Below the pieces are notes generated by a model. It saw only the letters and a list, made by a program, of their open reading frames with translations. It was not told the DNA's origin and did no database searches. Below are positions 1,047 through 7,960 of a stretch of DNA of 7,983 nucleotides, in pieces. Numbering within the stretch: position 1 is the stretch's first letter; every line of letters starts with the position of its first letter. This DNA comes from Bacillota bacterium (GTDB lineage: Bacteria; Bacillota_E; Sulfobacillia; Sulfobacillales; Sulfobacillaceae), in NCBI GenBank assembly GCA_021820645.1, contig JAKADJ010000092.1, forward strand, positions 1 to 7,983, read 5' to 3'. The position numbers were made by a program, and so were the translations under genes.

Positions 1047-1982
1047 TTATTTGATGGAGATATGCTGGGACTTTTCCATCTTGCTGGTCCAGTTTTGATA
1101 CATGGTGTTGGCCGTCTGTTGCTGGAGGTCCGATTTGACCTGGCTTTGAACTTTGGAAAATGGCTGGACGGTCGAGGGCTTAGTCGCCTGTAACCAAATC
1201 ACGTGGTAGCCTTGAGATCCCTTATAGGTGGAATACTTCCCGACCTTCATGCCTGAGATGGCTTGGGCCATGCCCGAGGACATGGAACTGGTGGGCAAAT
1301 ACCCAAGACTCCCCCCCGACTTTCCGGATGATGCAATGGAATAGTGTTTGGCCAACGTAGCGAAGCTTGTCCCGCCTTGGGCCTGCTTGAGGACTTTATC
1401 GGCAAGGGACTTCGTCTTGACCACAATGTCGCTTACCTCATCCTCAGGAGGAGTGGTGAAGGTAGACTTGTTCTTTTGATAAAAGGCCTTTTCCTGCGCT
1501 GTGGTTGGGGCCTTGACGTTTTTGGTAACCTTGGCAAAGGCGCTTTGAGCCACCATTTCATCGGTAATGTAAGTCTGGAAGTCCGCGAAGGTCAGTTTCT
1601 TCTGCTTTAACATTTTTGTTAGTCCGGATTTTCCCCCGACTTGCGATTCGATGTTGGCGCTGATGAACTGGCTGGCCTGGGACTTAGCCTTCTTGGTAGT
1701 CGTCAGGTGATGTTTCAAGGCCCACTGGTCCACGGCCGTCTGGGCGACCACTGCCTTGACTTCCAACTTTTTCTCGCTGGCTGTGGTAGGCAGGCTTGCT
1801 CCCTGCATGAACTCGGTCCCTCTAACGAATAAATTAACGTCTTGTGCGGTAATCTTTTGCCCGTTCACGGTGGCCACCGTGGCCGACCCCGGAGCCGAAG
1901 TAGCATGGGCGCCACATCCTGCAATGAGTGCACCAAGCGCGGGAATTGAGAGCGCTAATACTGCCTTCTGTCGTTTCATCAT
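1047..1982 (-). CDS. PrsA/SurA-type peptidyl-prolyl isomerase lipoprotein (foldase) with altered catalytic residues
   Basis: Predicted membrane-anchored extracytoplasmic foldase that helps exported proteins fold. A basic N-terminus (MMKRQK) and a hydrophobic core at 7-20 lead to a lipobox IAGC with the lipidated Cys at residue 23. A SurA_N-like segment starts with VATVNGQKIT (36-45). The parvulin-like domain spans about 180-268, with SLGYL (225-229), the MKVGKYS turn (245-251) and GYHVI (258-262). A Lys/Gln/Ser-rich C-terminal tail runs to 311; the length fits the PrsA family. Against canonical parvulins the HILVK His is D185, the Cys/Asp of the SxxSS motif is A217 and the Asp of GGDLG is S225; only the second His (H260) is kept. 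Isomerase activity may therefore be weak or lost, leaving a chaperone role. Start choice: AGAAAGGTGG at 1986-1995 lies 3 nt before the first ATG and 6 nt before the second (1979), so the second may be used. Confidence 0.93.
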   Translation of the reverse strand: MMKRQKAVLALSIPALGALIAGCGAHATSAPGSATVATVNGQKITAQDVNLFVRGTEFMQGASLPTTASEKKLEVKAVVAQTAVDQWALKHHLTTTKKAKSQASQFISANIESQVGGKSGLTKMLKQKKLTFADFQTYITDEMVAQSAFAKVTKNVKAPTTAQEKAFYQKNKSTFTTPPEDEVSDIVVKTKSLADKVLKQAQGGTSFATLAKHYSIASSGKSGGSLGYLPTSSMSSGMAQAISGMKVGKYSTYKGSQGYHVIWLQATKPSTVQPFSKVQSQVKSDLQQQTANTMYQNWTSKMEKSQHISIK

Positions 1983-2135: not shown

Positions 2136-3263
2136 ATGCGCGTTCTTATGATTTCTAAAGCCTGCGTGACCGCATCCTACCGCTCCAAAATTACCTACAT
2201 GAACCGAAGTCATGACGTCGAGATGGGGCTGGTGGTACCGGATCATTGGGCCAATTTGCCTTATGAATCGGACCCGTGCGACCAAGAGTATCCCATCTTT
2301 AAGCTCCCGATCCCGTTTAACGGTAAAAACCACTTTCATTGGTATCCTAATTTAACGCGTATTGTCCGCGAGTTTAAACCCGACCTCGTCCATGTGGATG
2401 AAGAGCACTACAGCGCCGTGACCTGGCAAGGGGTCCGAGCGGCGCAACGTGCCCGGATCCCGAGCCTTTTTTTTACCTGGCAAAATATCTACAAGCGTTA
2501 TCCGGCACCCTTTTCATCCATTGAACAGCAAGTTTTTCGGCTAACCCGCGGGGCGATTGCGGGGAACCAAGACGCGGAGGCTGTTTTACGCAAAAAAGGT
2601 TATACCAAACCGGTGGTGGTGATCCCGCAGTTTGGAACCGACTTGGCCCTATTCGGTCCCCGTGATCGAGACGCCTTACGGCGGGAATACCATATTCAAC
2701 AGTCGTTTGTGGTAGGCTACGTAGGCCGTCTCATTGCGGAAAAAGGTATTGGCGATCTGCTTCAGGCGATGGAACCTCTCCTTCGGCGAAACCCTGATGT
2801 TGGTCTCTTGATTGTGGGGACGGGCCCCTACGACGCTACCATTCGTGAATGGGCCGAGCGCACAGGGGTGAAGCGGCAGCTCACGCGAGTTCCTTGGGTG
2901 GCGTCGGAAGCCATGGGGGATGTCATGAACCTCATGGATGCGCTGGTGCTCCCCTCCCGCACGACTGTGCGCTGGAAAGAGCAATTCGGACGGGTCTTGA
3001 CGGAAGCGATGGCCTCCCAAGTGGTCGTGATTGGGTCGGACAGCGGGGAGATTCCCCATGTTATTGGAGATGCCGGGCTGGTCTTCCCGGAAGGTCGGGT
3101 TGATCAGTTGCAGGACATATTAGGGCGCGTAATTGATGACGCGGATATACGTCGGCAATTGGCGCAGCGGGGCCCTGAAAGGGTAAGGGCTCACTTTACC
3201 CAAGAAGCGATCGCGGATAAAACCGTGGCTTTTTATCGCGACCTTTTAGGAGGCATGGCATAA
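2136..3263 (+). CDS. GT4-type glycosyltransferase (GT-B fold)
   Basis: Predicted cytoplasmic or membrane-associated retaining glycosyltransferase that moves a sugar from a nucleotide-sugar donor to a glycan, lipid or other acceptor. The N-terminal Rossmann-like half (about 1-170) contains LVHVDEEHY (84-92) and FFTWQNIYKRYP (112-123), a block I recall from a subgroup of GT4 enzymes. The C-terminal donor half starts at VVGYVGRLIAEKG (192-204), with R198 and K203 in the phosphate-binding positions. The EX7E motif is E282-E290 in EQFGRVLTE, followed by SDSGEIP (301-307). The usual Gly-Val-Pro after EAMAS is Gln-Val-Val here. At 375 aa it is full length. It opens the operon with a good AAGAAGGGGTG site before the ATG, and the next gene starts on the base after its stop. 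Neighbours make UDP-GlcA and UDP-xylose, so either could be the donor; the sequence does not settle it. Confidence 0.92.
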   Translation: MRVLMISKACVTASYRSKITYMNRSHDVEMGLVVPDHWANLPYESDPCDQEYPIFKLPIPFNGKNHFHWYPNLTRIVREFKPDLVHVDEEHYSAVTWQGVRAAQRARIPSLFFTWQNIYKRYPAPFSSIEQQVFRLTRGAIAGNQDAEAVLRKKGYTKPVVVIPQFGTDLALFGPRDRDALRREYHIQQSFVVGYVGRLIAEKGIGDLLQAMEPLLRRNPDVGLLIVGTGPYDATIREWAERTGVKRQLTRVPWVASEAMGDVMNLMDALVLPSRTTVRWKEQFGRVLTEAMASQVVVIGSDSGEIPHVIGDAGLVFPEGRVDQLQDILGRVIDDADIRRQLAQRGPERVRAHFTQEAIADKTVAFYRDLLGGMA

Positions 3264-4640
3264 ATGAAGGTTTCCGTATTCGGCGCCGGGTATGTCGGCT
3301 TGGTAACAGGTGCCGTGCTGGCGGACTTGGGTCATCACGTGACTCTCATTGAAGTCTCTCAAGAAAAAATTTCGCTGATTAGCCAACGTTGCTCGCCTAT
3401 TTTTGAGGAGGGTCTAGAATCTCTCATGGCCCGCGCGATGGATAATGGGCACCTCGACGTGACGGACGACGCCCAAGCCGCGGTGGCCCAAAGTGACGTG
3501 ATCTTTATTGCCGTGGGCACCCCTCCCCTTCCGGACGGCGAGGCCGACCTCCGCTACGTACGCCAGGCCGCCCTGGCCATTGGGCATGGTCTGACAGGAG
3601 AATCGCGACAGGTCATTGTCAACAAGGCCACCGTGCCCATTGGCTCGGCCAACCTCGTAGAGGTATGGATTCAAGACGGCTATCGGGAGGTGCATGGGAG
3701 GGGACCGTCAGCCGAATGGTATTCGGTCGCCTCGAATCCAGAGTTCTTGCGAGAAGGCACTGCTGTCTACGACACTCTTTATCCCGACCGCATCGTGCTG
3801 GGAGCCGATCAAGACTGGGCACTACAGCGCTTAAAAGACCTGTATCAGCCGATTATTACCCAGTCGTTCGGGCCTCCCCCGGAAGCCCCGAGACCCAATG
3901 GTCTGACATCCGTTCCGGTGGTGGTGACCGATCGTATTTCCTCTGAAATGATTAAGTACGCGGCCAACGCGTTTCTGGCGACGAAAATTTCCTTCGCCAA
4001 TGAAATTGCCAACATTTCGGAGCGGGTTGGTGCCGACGTGGTCGAGGTGATGCAAGGGATTGGGCTCGACAAGCGCATTGGCTCGCGGTTCCTTAACGCC
4101 GGTATTGGCTGGGGCGGCAGCTGTTTTGGTAAAGATCTCTCGGCCCTGACGGTGACGGCCGATGAATACGGGTATCATCCGCGGCTACTTCGGGCGACCC
4201 AAGACGTTAACCGCGACCAACGGCTGACCGTGGTCAAACGCTTGCAGGAGGCCTTAAAGGCCATTAAGGGTCGACGGATTGCCTTGTGGGGCGTCGCCTT
4301 TAAGCCAGGTACGGACGACCTCCGCGATGCTCCGGCGCTCACGATTATCGAAGAGCTATTGCGCTTAGGCGCCCGTGTTCGTGTGTATGATCCGATCGCC
4401 CTCGATAATCTCCGGCGCACCCATCCGGATCTGGAAGTGGAGTATGCAGAGTCTGCGGAAGGCGCCTTGGACGGATCCGACGCGTTGATTTTGGCCACCG
4501 AATGGCCGGAGTTTCGCGACATCCCTCTTCCACGTATTGAAGAGCGCTTAACGCGTGGGATTGTCATAGACGGGCGAAACTTCTGGGATCCAGAAGAAGC
4601 GCGGCGGGCAGGACTACAATACCGCGGCATTGGCCGCTAA
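3264..4640 (+). CDS. ugd: UDP-glucose 6-dehydrogenase
   Basis: Oxidises UDP-glucose to UDP-glucuronate with two NAD+, feeding the decarboxylase encoded next. The N-terminal NAD-binding domain begins VFGAGYVGLVTG (5-16), with AVGTPP at 83-88 and SNPEFLREG at 157-165. The central dimerisation helix region carries K231 and N235 in MIKYAANAF. The catalytic loop is GWGGSCFGKD (282-291), with nucleophile C287 and D291; the Pro that often follows CF is Gly (G289), which I believe is an ordinary variant. The UDP-binding C-terminal domain contains FKPGTDDLRDAP (346-357) and ends with DGRNFWD (436-442). All expected motifs are intact and 458 aa is normal for the family. Its ATG directly abuts the TAA of the glycosyltransferase, with AGGAGG (3248-3253) inside the upstream gene, so the two are probably translationally coupled. 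Confidence 0.97.
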   Translation: MKVSVFGAGYVGLVTGAVLADLGHHVTLIEVSQEKISLISQRCSPIFEEGLESLMARAMDNGHLDVTDDAQAAVAQSDVIFIAVGTPPLPDGEADLRYVRQAALAIGHGLTGESRQVIVNKATVPIGSANLVEVWIQDGYREVHGRGPSAEWYSVASNPEFLREGTAVYDTLYPDRIVLGADQDWALQRLKDLYQPIITQSFGPPPEAPRPNGLTSVPVVVTDRISSEMIKYAANAFLATKISFANEIANISERVGADVVEVMQGIGLDKRIGSRFLNAGIGWGGSCFGKDLSALTVTADEYGYHPRLLRATQDVNRDQRLTVVKRLQEALKAIKGRRIALWGVAFKPGTDDLRDAPALTIIEELLRLGARVRVYDPIALDNLRRTHPDLEVEYAESAEGALDGSDALILATEWPEFRDIPLPRIEERLTRGIVIDGRNFWDPEEARRAGLQYRGIGR

Positions 4641-4652
4641 GGGAGGCGTAGC

Positions 4653-5594
4653 ATGAATACGGCCATTGTAACGGGCGGAGCCGGCTTTATTGGAAGCCAC
4701 CTGGTCGACAAGTTGGTGCAAGAAGGACTTCAGGTTGTCGTGTTGGACAATCTGTGTACCGGCAGTTGGGATAATCTCGCGCACCATGATCCGGCCATCG
4801 TGAAACGGGTTTTCGCGGACGTTTCCGCCCCATGGCCCGAAGGGTCGCTCCCGAGTCAGGTTGACCTGGTTTTCCACCTGGCATCCCCGGCCTCTCCGGT
4901 CCATTATCGGCGCTTAGCCATTGAAACGCTTATGGTCAACTCCACGGGGACCAAGAATGCGCTAGATACGGCCTTAAAGTACGGTGCCCGTTTCATCTTA
5001 GCCTCCACGTCCGAATCCTACGGTGACCCCACCGTGTCTCCCCAACCCGAAACCTATTGGGGGCATGTGAATCCGGTGGGCCCACGTTCCTGTTATGATG
5101 AATCCAAACGGTTCAGTGAAGCCCTCACCATGGAATACGTCCGTACCCATGGTCTTGACGCCCGTATTCTTCGGTTTTTCAACTGCTATGGGCCGCGCAT
5201 GCAATCGGAGGATGGTCGGGTGGTGCCGAACTTTGTACGCCAAGCACTTAGTGAGGAAGCACTCACGGTTTATGGGACGGGAGAACAGACGCGGAGTTTC
5301 TGTTACGTTTCCGATGAAGTCGAGGGTATTTGGCTCGCCGCCGTGACCGACGGGTTATCCGGAGAGGTCATTAATATTGGCAATCCCGAAGAACGAACCA
5401 TCAGGAATTTTGCTGAGGTGGTCGCCGAGGTGGCGGGGACTCAGCTCAACGTGGAGACCCGACCATTACCACCCGATGACCCGACCAACCGTTGTCCGGA
5501 CATTCGTAAGGCACGCGAACTCTTGGGATGGGAACCGCAGGTGGGATTAAGAGAAGGGCTGGAAGAGACATTCCGCTATTTTCGCAATGCCTAG
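4653..5594 (+). CDS. uxs: UDP-glucuronate decarboxylase (UDP-xylose synthase), extended SDR
   Basis: Converts UDP-glucuronate to UDP-xylose through a tightly bound NAD+ cycle, using the product of the preceding dehydrogenase. The Rossmann motif is GGAGFIGSH (8-16). HLASPASPVHY (75-85) and ASTSESYGDP (117-126) are hallmark blocks of UXS-type enzymes, as are NPVGPRSCYDESKR (140-153), with the YxxxK pair Y148/K152, and RMQSEDGRVVPNF (182-194). S120 and E121 match the decarboxylase Ser-Glu pair, and R280 in NRCPDI (279-284) matches the Arg needed for decarboxylation in ArnA-type enzymes. These features distinguish it from UDP-glucose 4-epimerases and from UDP-sulfoquinovose synthase. The 313 aa length is typical. 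GGGAGG (4641-4646) lies 6 nt before the ATG, and the gene is 12 nt from the stop of ugd. The stop is TAG at 5592. A 4-deoxy-4-keto-releasing or UDP-apiose-type activity is a less likely alternative. Confidence 0.94.
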   Translation: MNTAIVTGGAGFIGSHLVDKLVQEGLQVVVLDNLCTGSWDNLAHHDPAIVKRVFADVSAPWPEGSLPSQVDLVFHLASPASPVHYRRLAIETLMVNSTGTKNALDTALKYGARFILASTSESYGDPTVSPQPETYWGHVNPVGPRSCYDESKRFSEALTMEYVRTHGLDARILRFFNCYGPRMQSEDGRVVPNFVRQALSEEALTVYGTGEQTRSFCYVSDEVEGIWLAAVTDGLSGEVINIGNPEERTIRNFAEVVAEVAGTQLNVETRPLPPDDPTNRCPDIRKARELLGWEPQVGLREGLEETFRYFRNA

Positions 5595-5641: not shown

Positions 5642-7960
5642 ATGACAACTCTTCAATGGAACATGCAGGGAAGCAACCGCCTGGTGCTAGGCCGGAATAA
5701 CTCGCCGATCATTGCGGTGAATTCCTCCGACTGGATTATTGAGGATGTGGAGAAGGTCTCCACGCAGCACTGGATTGCATGGGACAATTTTCGTGAACGG
5801 GGTCGGAGGCGTTTTGGCGCCACGACGGCGGTGTCCTTAGCCGAAAACCACTGGACGCTTCTCGATGAGTCGAGCCGGGCGCTTGCGTCCATATCATTAG
5901 AGCTTCCTCATCCCTGGCATGCTATCCTTCATCTTCATATTCATCGAGGCAACCGCGCAGGACTAGTCTGGTGGGGCCCCCAAGACGAGCGGTTGTACGG
6001 GTTCGGAGAATATGGCGACGGCCCCTTGATGTCGCCCGGACGCTGGTCGACATGGACGGAAGAAGGCCCCGTGGGTCTCGGCCCCCTTGGCCGCTGGCTT
6101 CGCTGGACCGGCAAGGTGCCCCTCCCCGGCCATCGGGCCACCTATGCCCCCTCACCCACCTGGCTTAGTTCACTCGGCTATGCCGCCTGGCTTGATGAGA
6201 CCGAGCGTGTGGATTGGACCTATCGTGGATCCCGTCGGAGCCTTCGCGTTTGGGATCAAGATGTTACTCTGCACGTAGTGGCGGGAGACTGCTTAAAGGA
6301 CGCTCTTATTCACCGAAATCAACTCATCGGCTTGCCGAGGCTTCCGGCGCTCTGGCAATTCGGACCGTGGAACGATGCCGTTCAGGGAGAATCTCAGGTA
6401 CGAATGTGCATGCTTCGGCTCAGAGAAAACCAGATTCCCTCCTCGGCCATGTGGATCGAAGACTGGACGGGGTCTTGGGAGGACGGGCGGCGATTTTGGA
6501 TGCGGCCGTTGAGCCATAAACTCAGCCGGCGCCTCTACCCTCATTGGGAAGACATGGTAAGTGATCTCCACCAGATGAACTTCAAAGTGCTCGGGTATTT
6601 CTGCCCTGAGATCGCTCAGGATACTCGGCTGTATCAGGAGGCCTTGGCCGGTGGTCATCTCGTCCAAGATTCCGATGGACGCGCCGTCGATGTGGACATC
6701 CTTGGGCACCATCATGGCGAAATCGACCTCACGCGTTCTGATACCCGCGAATGGGTAAAAAGCCGACTTTTTGCTCCGGCCTTGGAAATGGGCTTTGATG
6801 GATGGATGGCAGACTTCGGCGAGCATCTTCCTGTCGAAAGTCTACTGGATGACGGAACAAGTGGATTCGAAAGCCATAATCGGTGGCCGCTCCTTTGGCA
6901 GTCTCTCAATCGAGAATTTTGGCAAGACGCCCGTCCCGATGGGGACTATACCTTTTTTGTGCGCTCGGCCGGCCTCACCACCCCATCGCTTGCGCCGGCC
7001 ATGTGGGGCGGCGATTCGGATACCGACTGGGATGTGGCTGATGGCCTTCCTACAGTGGTCCCCGCCGCCCTCTCGGCCGGCCTTTCCGGCAACGTGTTTT
7101 GGGGCACCGACATTGCCGGCTATATGTCGTTCGGGTTAACCCGCCCCTCAACCAAAGAGCTCTACATCCGATGGGCCGAGGTGGGGGCGCTCATGCCCCT
7201 GATGCGAACCCATCATGGCACCGCCCGTCCCCGAAATTGGCACTGGTCGCGCGATGAGGAAACCCAGACCGCATATGCCCGCTTGGCGCGTCTACACGCA
7301 AGTCTATTGCCTGTCTTTTATAATCTAGCGGATGAGGCCTCAAAAACCGGTCTTCCCGTTATTCGCCCCCTATGGCTTGAGTACCCCGATGCCGATCCCG
7401 CAGATAATCGCCAGTTTCTTATTGGGTCCAACCTCCTGTGCGCGCCGGTGGTTCGTCGGGGACAAAGACGCCAGATGGTAGACTTGCCGACCGGAGCATG
7501 GAACATGTGGTGGACCAGTGTCACTTATCACGGCCCCGCCCGTGTCGTAGTGGATGCCCCGCTGGGTCAGCCTCCCCTGTTTTGGCGCCAAGATGCGTGG
7601 CTCGCCCTGTCCGAAGGACTCCCGGCGAAAGACACCAGCACCTTAGGATTTGTCGAGTCGCTTGCCCACACTGAGGGCCAACGGGCCGCGTCCTTTGCGG
7701 TAACCCTGGTGGCACCCAAGACGTCGGCGCCGGTGACGCTTACCTTGCCGGGAGGAATATTGACGGGCCGTCCGGAGTTAGGATGCGACGCGGATGAAAA
7801 CGCTCCCCCACCTACGTTTACCTCCCACCTCCCCCCGCTTTCCGAGGGGGTCAGGGGTAAAGTCCCACCGTGGGGGGAAAGGAAGGTCGCGCAGATGCAG
7901 TGGGAGTGGTCTGGTCGCGAGCCCTTATGGGTGACGGTTCGCCGACCGGAGCCGCAGTAA
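5642..7960 (+). CDS. GH31 family alpha-glycosidase, sulfoquinovosidase (YihQ)-like branch
   Basis: Predicted cytoplasmic retaining alpha-glycosidase (no signal peptide or membrane segment). An N-terminal beta-sandwich region (about 1-230) includes ERLYGFGEY (116-124). The (beta/alpha)8 barrel carries the nucleophile D391 in WMADFGEHLP (388-397) and the acid/base D458 in WGGDSDTDW (455-463), then RTHHG (522-526). From remembered E. coli YihQ, the 67-residue gap between the two catalytic Asp residues is the same, and Y494 in DIAGY falls where YihQ has its sulfonate-binding Tyr. R283/W286 (RxxW), Q248 and E273 are candidates for the rest of the substrate signature. YicI-type alpha-xylosidases have KTDFGE rather than MADFGE. 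At 772 aa it is about 95 residues longer than YihQ, mostly in a C-terminal tail after about 660. The substrate may be a sulfoquinovoside, an alpha-glucuronoside or another glycoside; family certain, specificity open. Next to UDP-GlcA/UDP-xylose genes it may trim or recycle the product glycan. Confidence 0.93.
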   Translation: MTTLQWNMQGSNRLVLGRNNSPIIAVNSSDWIIEDVEKVSTQHWIAWDNFRERGRRRFGATTAVSLAENHWTLLDESSRALASISLELPHPWHAILHLHIHRGNRAGLVWWGPQDERLYGFGEYGDGPLMSPGRWSTWTEEGPVGLGPLGRWLRWTGKVPLPGHRATYAPSPTWLSSLGYAAWLDETERVDWTYRGSRRSLRVWDQDVTLHVVAGDCLKDALIHRNQLIGLPRLPALWQFGPWNDAVQGESQVRMCMLRLRENQIPSSAMWIEDWTGSWEDGRRFWMRPLSHKLSRRLYPHWEDMVSDLHQMNFKVLGYFCPEIAQDTRLYQEALAGGHLVQDSDGRAVDVDILGHHHGEIDLTRSDTREWVKSRLFAPALEMGFDGWMADFGEHLPVESLLDDGTSGFESHNRWPLLWQSLNREFWQDARPDGDYTFFVRSAGLTTPSLAPAMWGGDSDTDWDVADGLPTVVPAALSAGLSGNVFWGTDIAGYMSFGLTRPSTKELYIRWAEVGALMPLMRTHHGTARPRNWHWSRDEETQTAYARLARLHASLLPVFYNLADEASKTGLPVIRPLWLEYPDADPADNRQFLIGSNLLCAPVVRRGQRRQMVDLPTGAWNMWWTSVTYHGPARVVVDAPLGQPPLFWRQDAWLALSEGLPAKDTSTLGFVESLAHTEGQRAASFAVTLVAPKTSAPVTLTLPGGILTGRPELGCDADENAPPPTFTSHLPPLSEGVRGKVPPWGERKVAQMQWEWSGREPLWVTVRRPEPQ
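7803..7877. repeat. C/G-run palindromic element inside the GH31 C-terminal tail
   Basis: Two nested inverted repeats are visible: an outer pair CCCCCAC (7805-7811) with GTGGGGG (7870-7876), and an inner pair CCCCC (7832-7836) with GGGGG (7846-7850). Runs CTCCCC and AGGGGT lie between. The style resembles dispersed C-run/G-run palindromes found in many genomes, and the encoded PPLSEGVRGK (731-740) reads like a translated repeat rather than folded protein. It keeps the frame. Whether it recurs in the genome cannot be seen in this window. Confidence 0.45.

Follow-up and report, generated by a model that had tools for sequence, protein, structure and literature searches.

The window analysed here is a stretch of 7,983 nucleotides (contig JAKADJ010000092.1 of assembly GCA_021820645.1, from a bacterium of the family Sulfobacillaceae), and the gene in question, which occupies its right-hand end and encodes a glycosidase of the GH31 family, is listed in Table 1 together with residues of the predicted pocket and the neighboring genes. 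A first-pass annotation of this DNA had described the product as a possible new type of sulfoquinovosidase (SQase) with a pocket of mixed type, or as an enzyme adapted to a different C6 anion. The best reading of the present evidence is that the protein is a member of an uncharacterised GH31 branch of Sulfobacillus and its order, and not a demonstrated SQase. Membership in GH31 follows from a Pfam search of the protein, in which PF01055 scored 175.9 bits (cut-off 23.5) and PF21365 scored 62.3 bits (cut-off 24.4). The ATG is preceded by AAGGGG and separated by 47 bases from the stop codon of the upstream gene for a short-chain dehydrogenase/reductase (SDR) resembling UDP-glucuronate decarboxylase; judged by eye, the N-terminus contains no signal-like stretch, so the protein looks cytoplasmic.

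Table 1. Genes of the window and selected residues of the GH31 protein
Feature	Position	Strand	Remarks
Nucleoside hydrolase and PPIC-type foldase, adjoining	16-981 and 1047-1982	-	Pfam/NCBIfam and open reading frame (ORF) calls
GT4 glycosyltransferase	2136..3263	+	PF00534 above cut-off
UDP-glucose 6-dehydrogenase (UGD)	3264..4640	+	TIGR03026 above cut-off; PDB 4a7p, 360.1 bits
UDP-glucuronate decarboxylase (UDP-xylose synthase, UXS)-like SDR	4653..5594	+	top-scoring PDB entry UDP-glucuronic acid decarboxylase 1 (313.6 bits)
GH31 alpha-glycosidase gene	5642..7960	+	ATG at 5642, stop 7958-7960, coding 5642-7957; 772 amino acids
Q248	6383..6385	+	aligned with YihQ Q262; variable in clade
E273	6458..6460	+	aligned with YihQ Q288 and Agrobacterium SQase Glu; Glu in 59/59 clade members
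Loop 279-292 (WEDGRRFWMRPLSH)	6476..6517	+	clade signature replacing the SQase FGxRxxW loop
C321-P322-E323	6602..6610	+	replaces SQase N-P-Y; C and E each 59/59 in clade; N and Y 7/7 in reference SQases
D391, nucleophile (WMADFGE)	6812..6814	+	aligned with YihQ D405; 59/59 clade members
D458, acid/base	7013..7015	+	aligned with YihQ D472; 59/59 clade members
Y494	7121..7123	+	aligned with YihQ Y508; Tyr in 58/59 clade members and 40/61 intermediates

A distinct clade next to the sulfoquinovosidases

The homologues considered here are the best 120 of 322; they comprise a clade of 59 proteins that includes the window protein (P0001-P0059; P0001-P0057 in the first alignments) and 61 more distant GH31 proteins, which we call intermediates (P0060-P0120). 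For comparison, the best 120 of 5563 SQase homologues were taken, which are uncharacterised except for YihQ and, where named, mostly alphaproteobacterial. The closest named relative among the 120 homologues is a protein of Sulfobacillus harzensis (66% identity), encoded in a locus with the same gene order as the window. Within the order to which the S. harzensis genome belongs, 30 of the 42 genomes encode a single close copy (E no greater than 3.5e-179). One genome of the same order additionally encodes a GH31 protein that is 36% identical to that of the window and falls outside this close set (G034:C1:932134-933831, E 1.7e-60); it might represent an intermediate form.

In the phylogenetic tree, the clade of 59 was separate and fully supported. 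Two trees were built, one of 132 rows (549/650 columns) and another of 59 chosen rows (546/607 columns), with support expressed as the Shimodaira-Hasegawa-like approximate likelihood ratio (SH-aLRT), and the SQases formed one side of a branch that excluded the window protein with a support of 99-100. The first-pass annotation had named beforehand a position outside the SQase clade as evidence against its proposal, and it is outside that clade that the protein falls, even though a grouping of the SQases with the window clade was not rejected by the approximately unbiased (AU) test (p-AU 0.231). Among solved structures, the SQases are clearly the nearest, with 391-411 bits in a profile search against 232 bits for the next match and, when the predicted model was compared using Foldseek, TM scores (by target length) of 0.87-0.90 against 0.65. 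The NCBIfam model for YihQ, NF007746, gave the window protein 397.3 bits, under the cut-off of 553, whereas YihQ itself scored 1246.6 and four SQase homologues 870-967; all three intermediates tested (P0060, P0100 and P0113) also outscored the window protein. The NCBIfam model for the YicI alpha-xylosidase, NF007940, gave 200.8 bits, again under its cut-off of 606.

All the residues named in the first-pass annotation (D391, D458, Y494, Q248, E273, R283 and W286) occupy the positions claimed; D391, D458 and Y494 align to YihQ D405, D472 and Y508 without gaps, and the spacings of 67 (D391-D458) and 36 (D458-Y494) are, as claimed, identical to those of YihQ. Both spacings recur in every one of the 120 SQase homologues, in 6 of 7 reference SQases and in 58/59 clade proteins. 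The same is true, however, of 45 of the 61 intermediates, 28 of which have the tyrosine as well, so we rejected the spacing as evidence of SQase activity; the tyrosine, similarly, is present but, given its frequency among the intermediates, not specific to SQases.

The pocket

In YihQ, R301, W304 and Y508 bind the sulfonate of sulfoquinovose, a sulfosugar of plants that SQases release; a literature search on YihQ with R301 and W304 turned up no matching paper. The FGxRxxW motif that harbors the first two residues is present in all 120 SQase homologues and the 7 reference SQases but in none of the 59 clade members and none of the 61 intermediates. Conversely, the motif F[WVIR][MQ]RPL is found in 59/59 clade proteins and in 28/28 clade loci and is missing in all SQase homologues (0/120) and intermediates (0/61). 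Measured from the aspartate of EDW/QDW to the tyrosine of LYP/NYP, the loop consists of 25 residues in all 59 clade members and of 24 in 119 of the 120 SQase homologues, so it is not two to three residues shorter than in YihQ, as had been thought; 25 residues also separate these points in 17 of the 61 intermediates.

The proposed equivalence of R283 and W286 with R301 and W304 depends on which sequences are aligned. When the clade and the SQases were aligned alone, the pairing was recovered with 7 of 7 MAFFT and 6 of 6 HHalign settings, the latter with a printed confidence of 7 to 8 of 9 at these positions, and R283 fell on R301 in 681, 656 and 493 of 885 pairwise alignments at three gap costs. 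The printed phmmer alignment agrees for 5ohy but places R301 on R288 in the case of YihQ and on R284 in those of 8r56 and 6pnr, and once the 61 intermediates were added to the MAFFT alignment, R301 fell on W286 and W304 on L290. The pairing requires a gap of three residues and an opposite gap of four, with a net difference of one residue in loop length. The predicted model has a hairpin (279-280/285-286) within loop 279-292; the predicted model of YihQ has a predicted local distance difference test (pLDDT) score under 50 at 290-302, so its strands 294-296/299-301 were not relied on for the register of the hairpin. Within the clade, position 283 is R in 48, K in 7 and Q in 4 of the 59 proteins and position 286 is W in 54, whereas R288 and H292 are invariant and R284 is conserved in 57.

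The Q-Q and K-E pairs mark subtypes of SQases, and the window protein, with Q248 and E273, has neither. The hybrid signature that this combination was taken to represent is rejected here: position 248 varies (35 R-E, 17 Q-E, 6 G-E and 1 H-E pairs among the 59 proteins), so Q-E is a local state that does not hold across the clade; of the two residues, E273 alone is constant. R-E, the commonest pair, recalls the K-E pair of the Agrobacterium enzyme. Other differences from the SQases are fixed or nearly so, namely, H292 in place of W, H525 in place of E (58/59, with one gap) and D460 in place of N, S or C. Given the missing FGxRxxW motif and the changes at C321/E323, H292, H525 and D460, the pocket of the clade appears to be rebuilt relative to those of the SQases.

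Genomic context

The genomic neighborhoods were examined in the best 80 of 521 relatives, with neighboring ORFs (at least 100 amino acids) called mechanically, so that overlaps are approximate; in the set L002-L030, 28 of 29 loci carry the clade motif, L029 being the one without it. In 16 of these 28 clade loci, a gene for an MFS_2/GPH symporter is next, or nearly next, downstream of the GH31 gene, and in 14 of the 16 it overlaps the GH31 gene or sits within 33 bases of it (788 bases in L023 and 166 in L024). PF13347 was above cut-off in the one symporter tested with Pfam, and TIGR00792, for which three were tested, gave 148-156 bits against a cut-off of 231. The 16 symporters were compared with six GPH carriers of E. 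coli; their best matches were MelB (11), UidB (3) and YagG (2), at 20-25% identity, and never YihO, YihP or YicJ; with matches spread in this manner, the carrier does not reveal the sugar.

Apart from the GPH gene, the neighbors gave no functional lead. A GT4 homologue is located upstream of GH31 in 6 of the 28 clade loci, directly in four and with UGD and SDR genes in between in two, and this association is limited to the sub-branch of the window (L005-L008, L010 and L012). Close homologues of both UGD and UXS adjoin GH31 in two loci (L010 and L012) and are found 8.7 kb upstream in L002. Homologues of the nucleoside hydrolase and the foldase lie upstream of GH31 in 9 and 7 of the 28 clade loci, respectively, and this recurrence marks an old shared neighborhood; the tenth nucleoside hydrolase, that of L028, shares just 31% identity and lies on the downstream side. 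In S. harzensis (L012), two peptide/nickel-type ABC permease genes (9884-11697) follow GH31, with no ATPase or binding protein noticed directly adjoining.

The search for sulfoglycolysis genes that the first-pass annotation had proposed yielded no convincing set in the 28 clade genomes, with controls that were weak or absent. These genomes are largely metagenome-assembled and may be incomplete; they are those of relatives only, and DUF4867 (PF16161) was the sole representative searched of the sulfo-ED, sulfo-TAL and monooxygenase routes. No homologue of YihR-YihV (E 1e-5) was detected among the ORFs of the 29 loci. In the 28 genomes, YihT had two weak matches (about 24 bits) and YihS three matches at 28% identity that may be other isomerases of a broad family, no control having been searched for either. 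YihU was not found over cut-off in any of the 28, but passed it in only 1 of 14 control genomes; DUF4867 was found in none, with a control that was also silent; and no genome exceeded the NF007746 cut-off (0/28), but neither did any control (0/14), so no absence is claimed. The null result for the sulfoglycolysis genes weakens, but does not exclude, a role as an SQase.

Proposed function and alternatives

We consider it probable that the protein is a cytoplasmic, exo-acting, retaining alpha-glycosidase that acts on an imported small alpha-glycoside, the latter because a gene for a GPH sugar symporter lies next door in many relatives. Judging from the GH31 family at large and from the conserved residues, D391 would attack the anomeric carbon and D458 would protonate the leaving group, after which water would free the alpha-sugar. 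By homology with SQases, E273 and the variable residue 248 would hold the minus-1 sugar on its O3/O4 side, and the conserved RRFWMRPLSH loop would do so on the C6 side together with Y494. The sugar is most likely a gluco-configured hexoside, neutral or with an acid group at C6, and sulfoquinovose itself is an unlikely substrate. Several observations weigh against this proposal. The GPH gene is missing in 12 of the 28 clade loci (L003-L010, L012, L014, L016 and L027, the last of which ends within the GH31 gene), including those of most of the closest relatives of the window, and S. harzensis has the permeases of peptide type instead. The next gene downstream lies outside the window, which stops 23 bases past the GH31 stop codon. 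The position of GH31 after GT4, UGD and UXS genes in the window, L010 and L012 points to polysaccharide synthesis over uptake. Finally, we know of no characterised enzyme in the clade, and the substrate is thus deduced only indirectly.

A neutral alpha-glucosidase, alpha-galactosidase or alpha-xylosidase, similar to YicI and served by a GPH carrier, is a serious possibility that we rate at somewhat less than even: a GH31 gene beside a GPH gene is the YicI-YicJ arrangement, and 8 of the 28 clade genomes have no other PF01055 match. However, the remaining 20 contain additional, partly weak matches whose products could take on such work, the alpha-xylosidase model is far from its cut-off, and the profile score to YicI structures reaches 232 bits at most, compared with 411 for YihQ. 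As for the trimming or recycling of the cell's own exopolysaccharide, built by the products of the GT4, UGD and UXS genes, GH31 lies on the same strand immediately behind UXS and the GT4 gene recurs in six loci; the apparently cytoplasmic enzyme and the confinement of this association to the sub-branch of the window make this the least probable of the alternatives, and we regard it as very unlikely.

The two remaining explanations concern the C6 group. If the protein represented a new subtype of true SQase, R283, W286 and Y494 would bind the sulfonate in spite of two compensating changes in loop length, and E273 with Q248 (or Arg) would play the role of the K-E pair. In its favor are the proximity of the solved SQase structures, the retention of Y494 and E273, the alignments that directly pair R283/W286 with R301/W304, the resemblance of R-E to K-E and the joint grouping tolerated by the AU test. 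Against it, FGxRxxW is absent throughout the clade, R283 and W286 vary and lose their partners once the intermediates are aligned, the YihQ-model score is under cut-off and below those of intermediates, and the flanks show no YihR-YihV, so this subtype seems to us quite unlikely. A hydrolase of alpha-glucuronides, in which the arginine-rich loop (R283/R284/R288/H292) would read a C6 carboxylate in place of the sulfonate, would agree with the conservation of R284, R288 and H292, with adjoining window genes that make UDP-glucuronate and probably UDP-xylose, and with a carrier family to which UidB, a transporter of glucuronides and the best E. coli match of three of the symporters, belongs. Nevertheless, these biosynthetic genes adjoin GH31 in only two clade loci and make rather than break uronides, the symporter is nearest to MelB in 11 of 16 cases, and the loop arginines may pair with conserved acids such as E323 and D460; we hold this specificity to be unlikely. 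In its broader form, the idea that an order-wide clade of acidophiles rebuilt an SQase-type pocket (the RRFWMRPLSH loop, CPE, H525 and D460) to read a non-sulfonate C6 acid, such as that of an alpha-glucuronide, is a speculative suggestion from the sequences that we hold to be rather unlikely; to our knowledge, no GH31 activity that hydrolyses alpha-glucuronides has been reported.

Comparison with known systems

A GH31 branch that is conserved, occurs in single copy and keeps an invariant, unassigned pocket offers a promising place to look for a new specificity in a much-used enzyme family, and the labels 'sulfoquinovosidase' or 'alpha-glucosidase' should not be transferred to the clade on overall similarity alone. 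Four of the 61 intermediates (P0090, P0111, P0113 and P0114) are named 'sulfoquinovosidase' by JGI; they have no FGxRxxW and fall outside the SQase clade, so this name may be over-transferred.

The likeness to the alpha-xylosidase YicI, encoded with YicJ, is that of a GH31 gene adjoining one for a GPH carrier; YicI forms an outgroup branch in the trees and differs in the loop and in the spacings (66, 33 and 17). The intermediates, from Actinomycetota, Myxococcota and others, belong to the same broad branch as the clade and partly share its motifs (WMADFGE in 25/61, DIxGY in 33/61), but differ in having no F[WVIR][MQ]RPL loop and, in those tested, higher YihQ-model scores. The SQases compared were those of E. 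coli (YihQ; 5aed, 5oht) and Agrobacterium (5ohs, 5ohy), SftG of E. rectale (6pnr) and BmSQase (8r56); PMC11968277 gives kcat/KM values in the 10^5 M-1 s-1 range on para-nitrophenyl-alpha-sulfoquinovoside for known SQases. The window protein is longer than YihQ (772 versus 678 amino acids), and at its C-terminus some 110 residues (660-772, window positions ~7619-7957), which the predicted model shows chiefly as strands, extend beyond residue 659, where the phmmer alignment to YihQ stops. With the SQases it shares the GH31 fold, the two catalytic aspartates 67 residues apart, the tyrosine at +36 and, as in the Agrobacterium enzyme, the glutamate E273; unlike them, it lies outside their clade, lacks FGxRxxW, carries a loop of 25 instead of 24 residues and differs at CPE (NPY in the SQases), H525 (E) and D460 (N, S or C).
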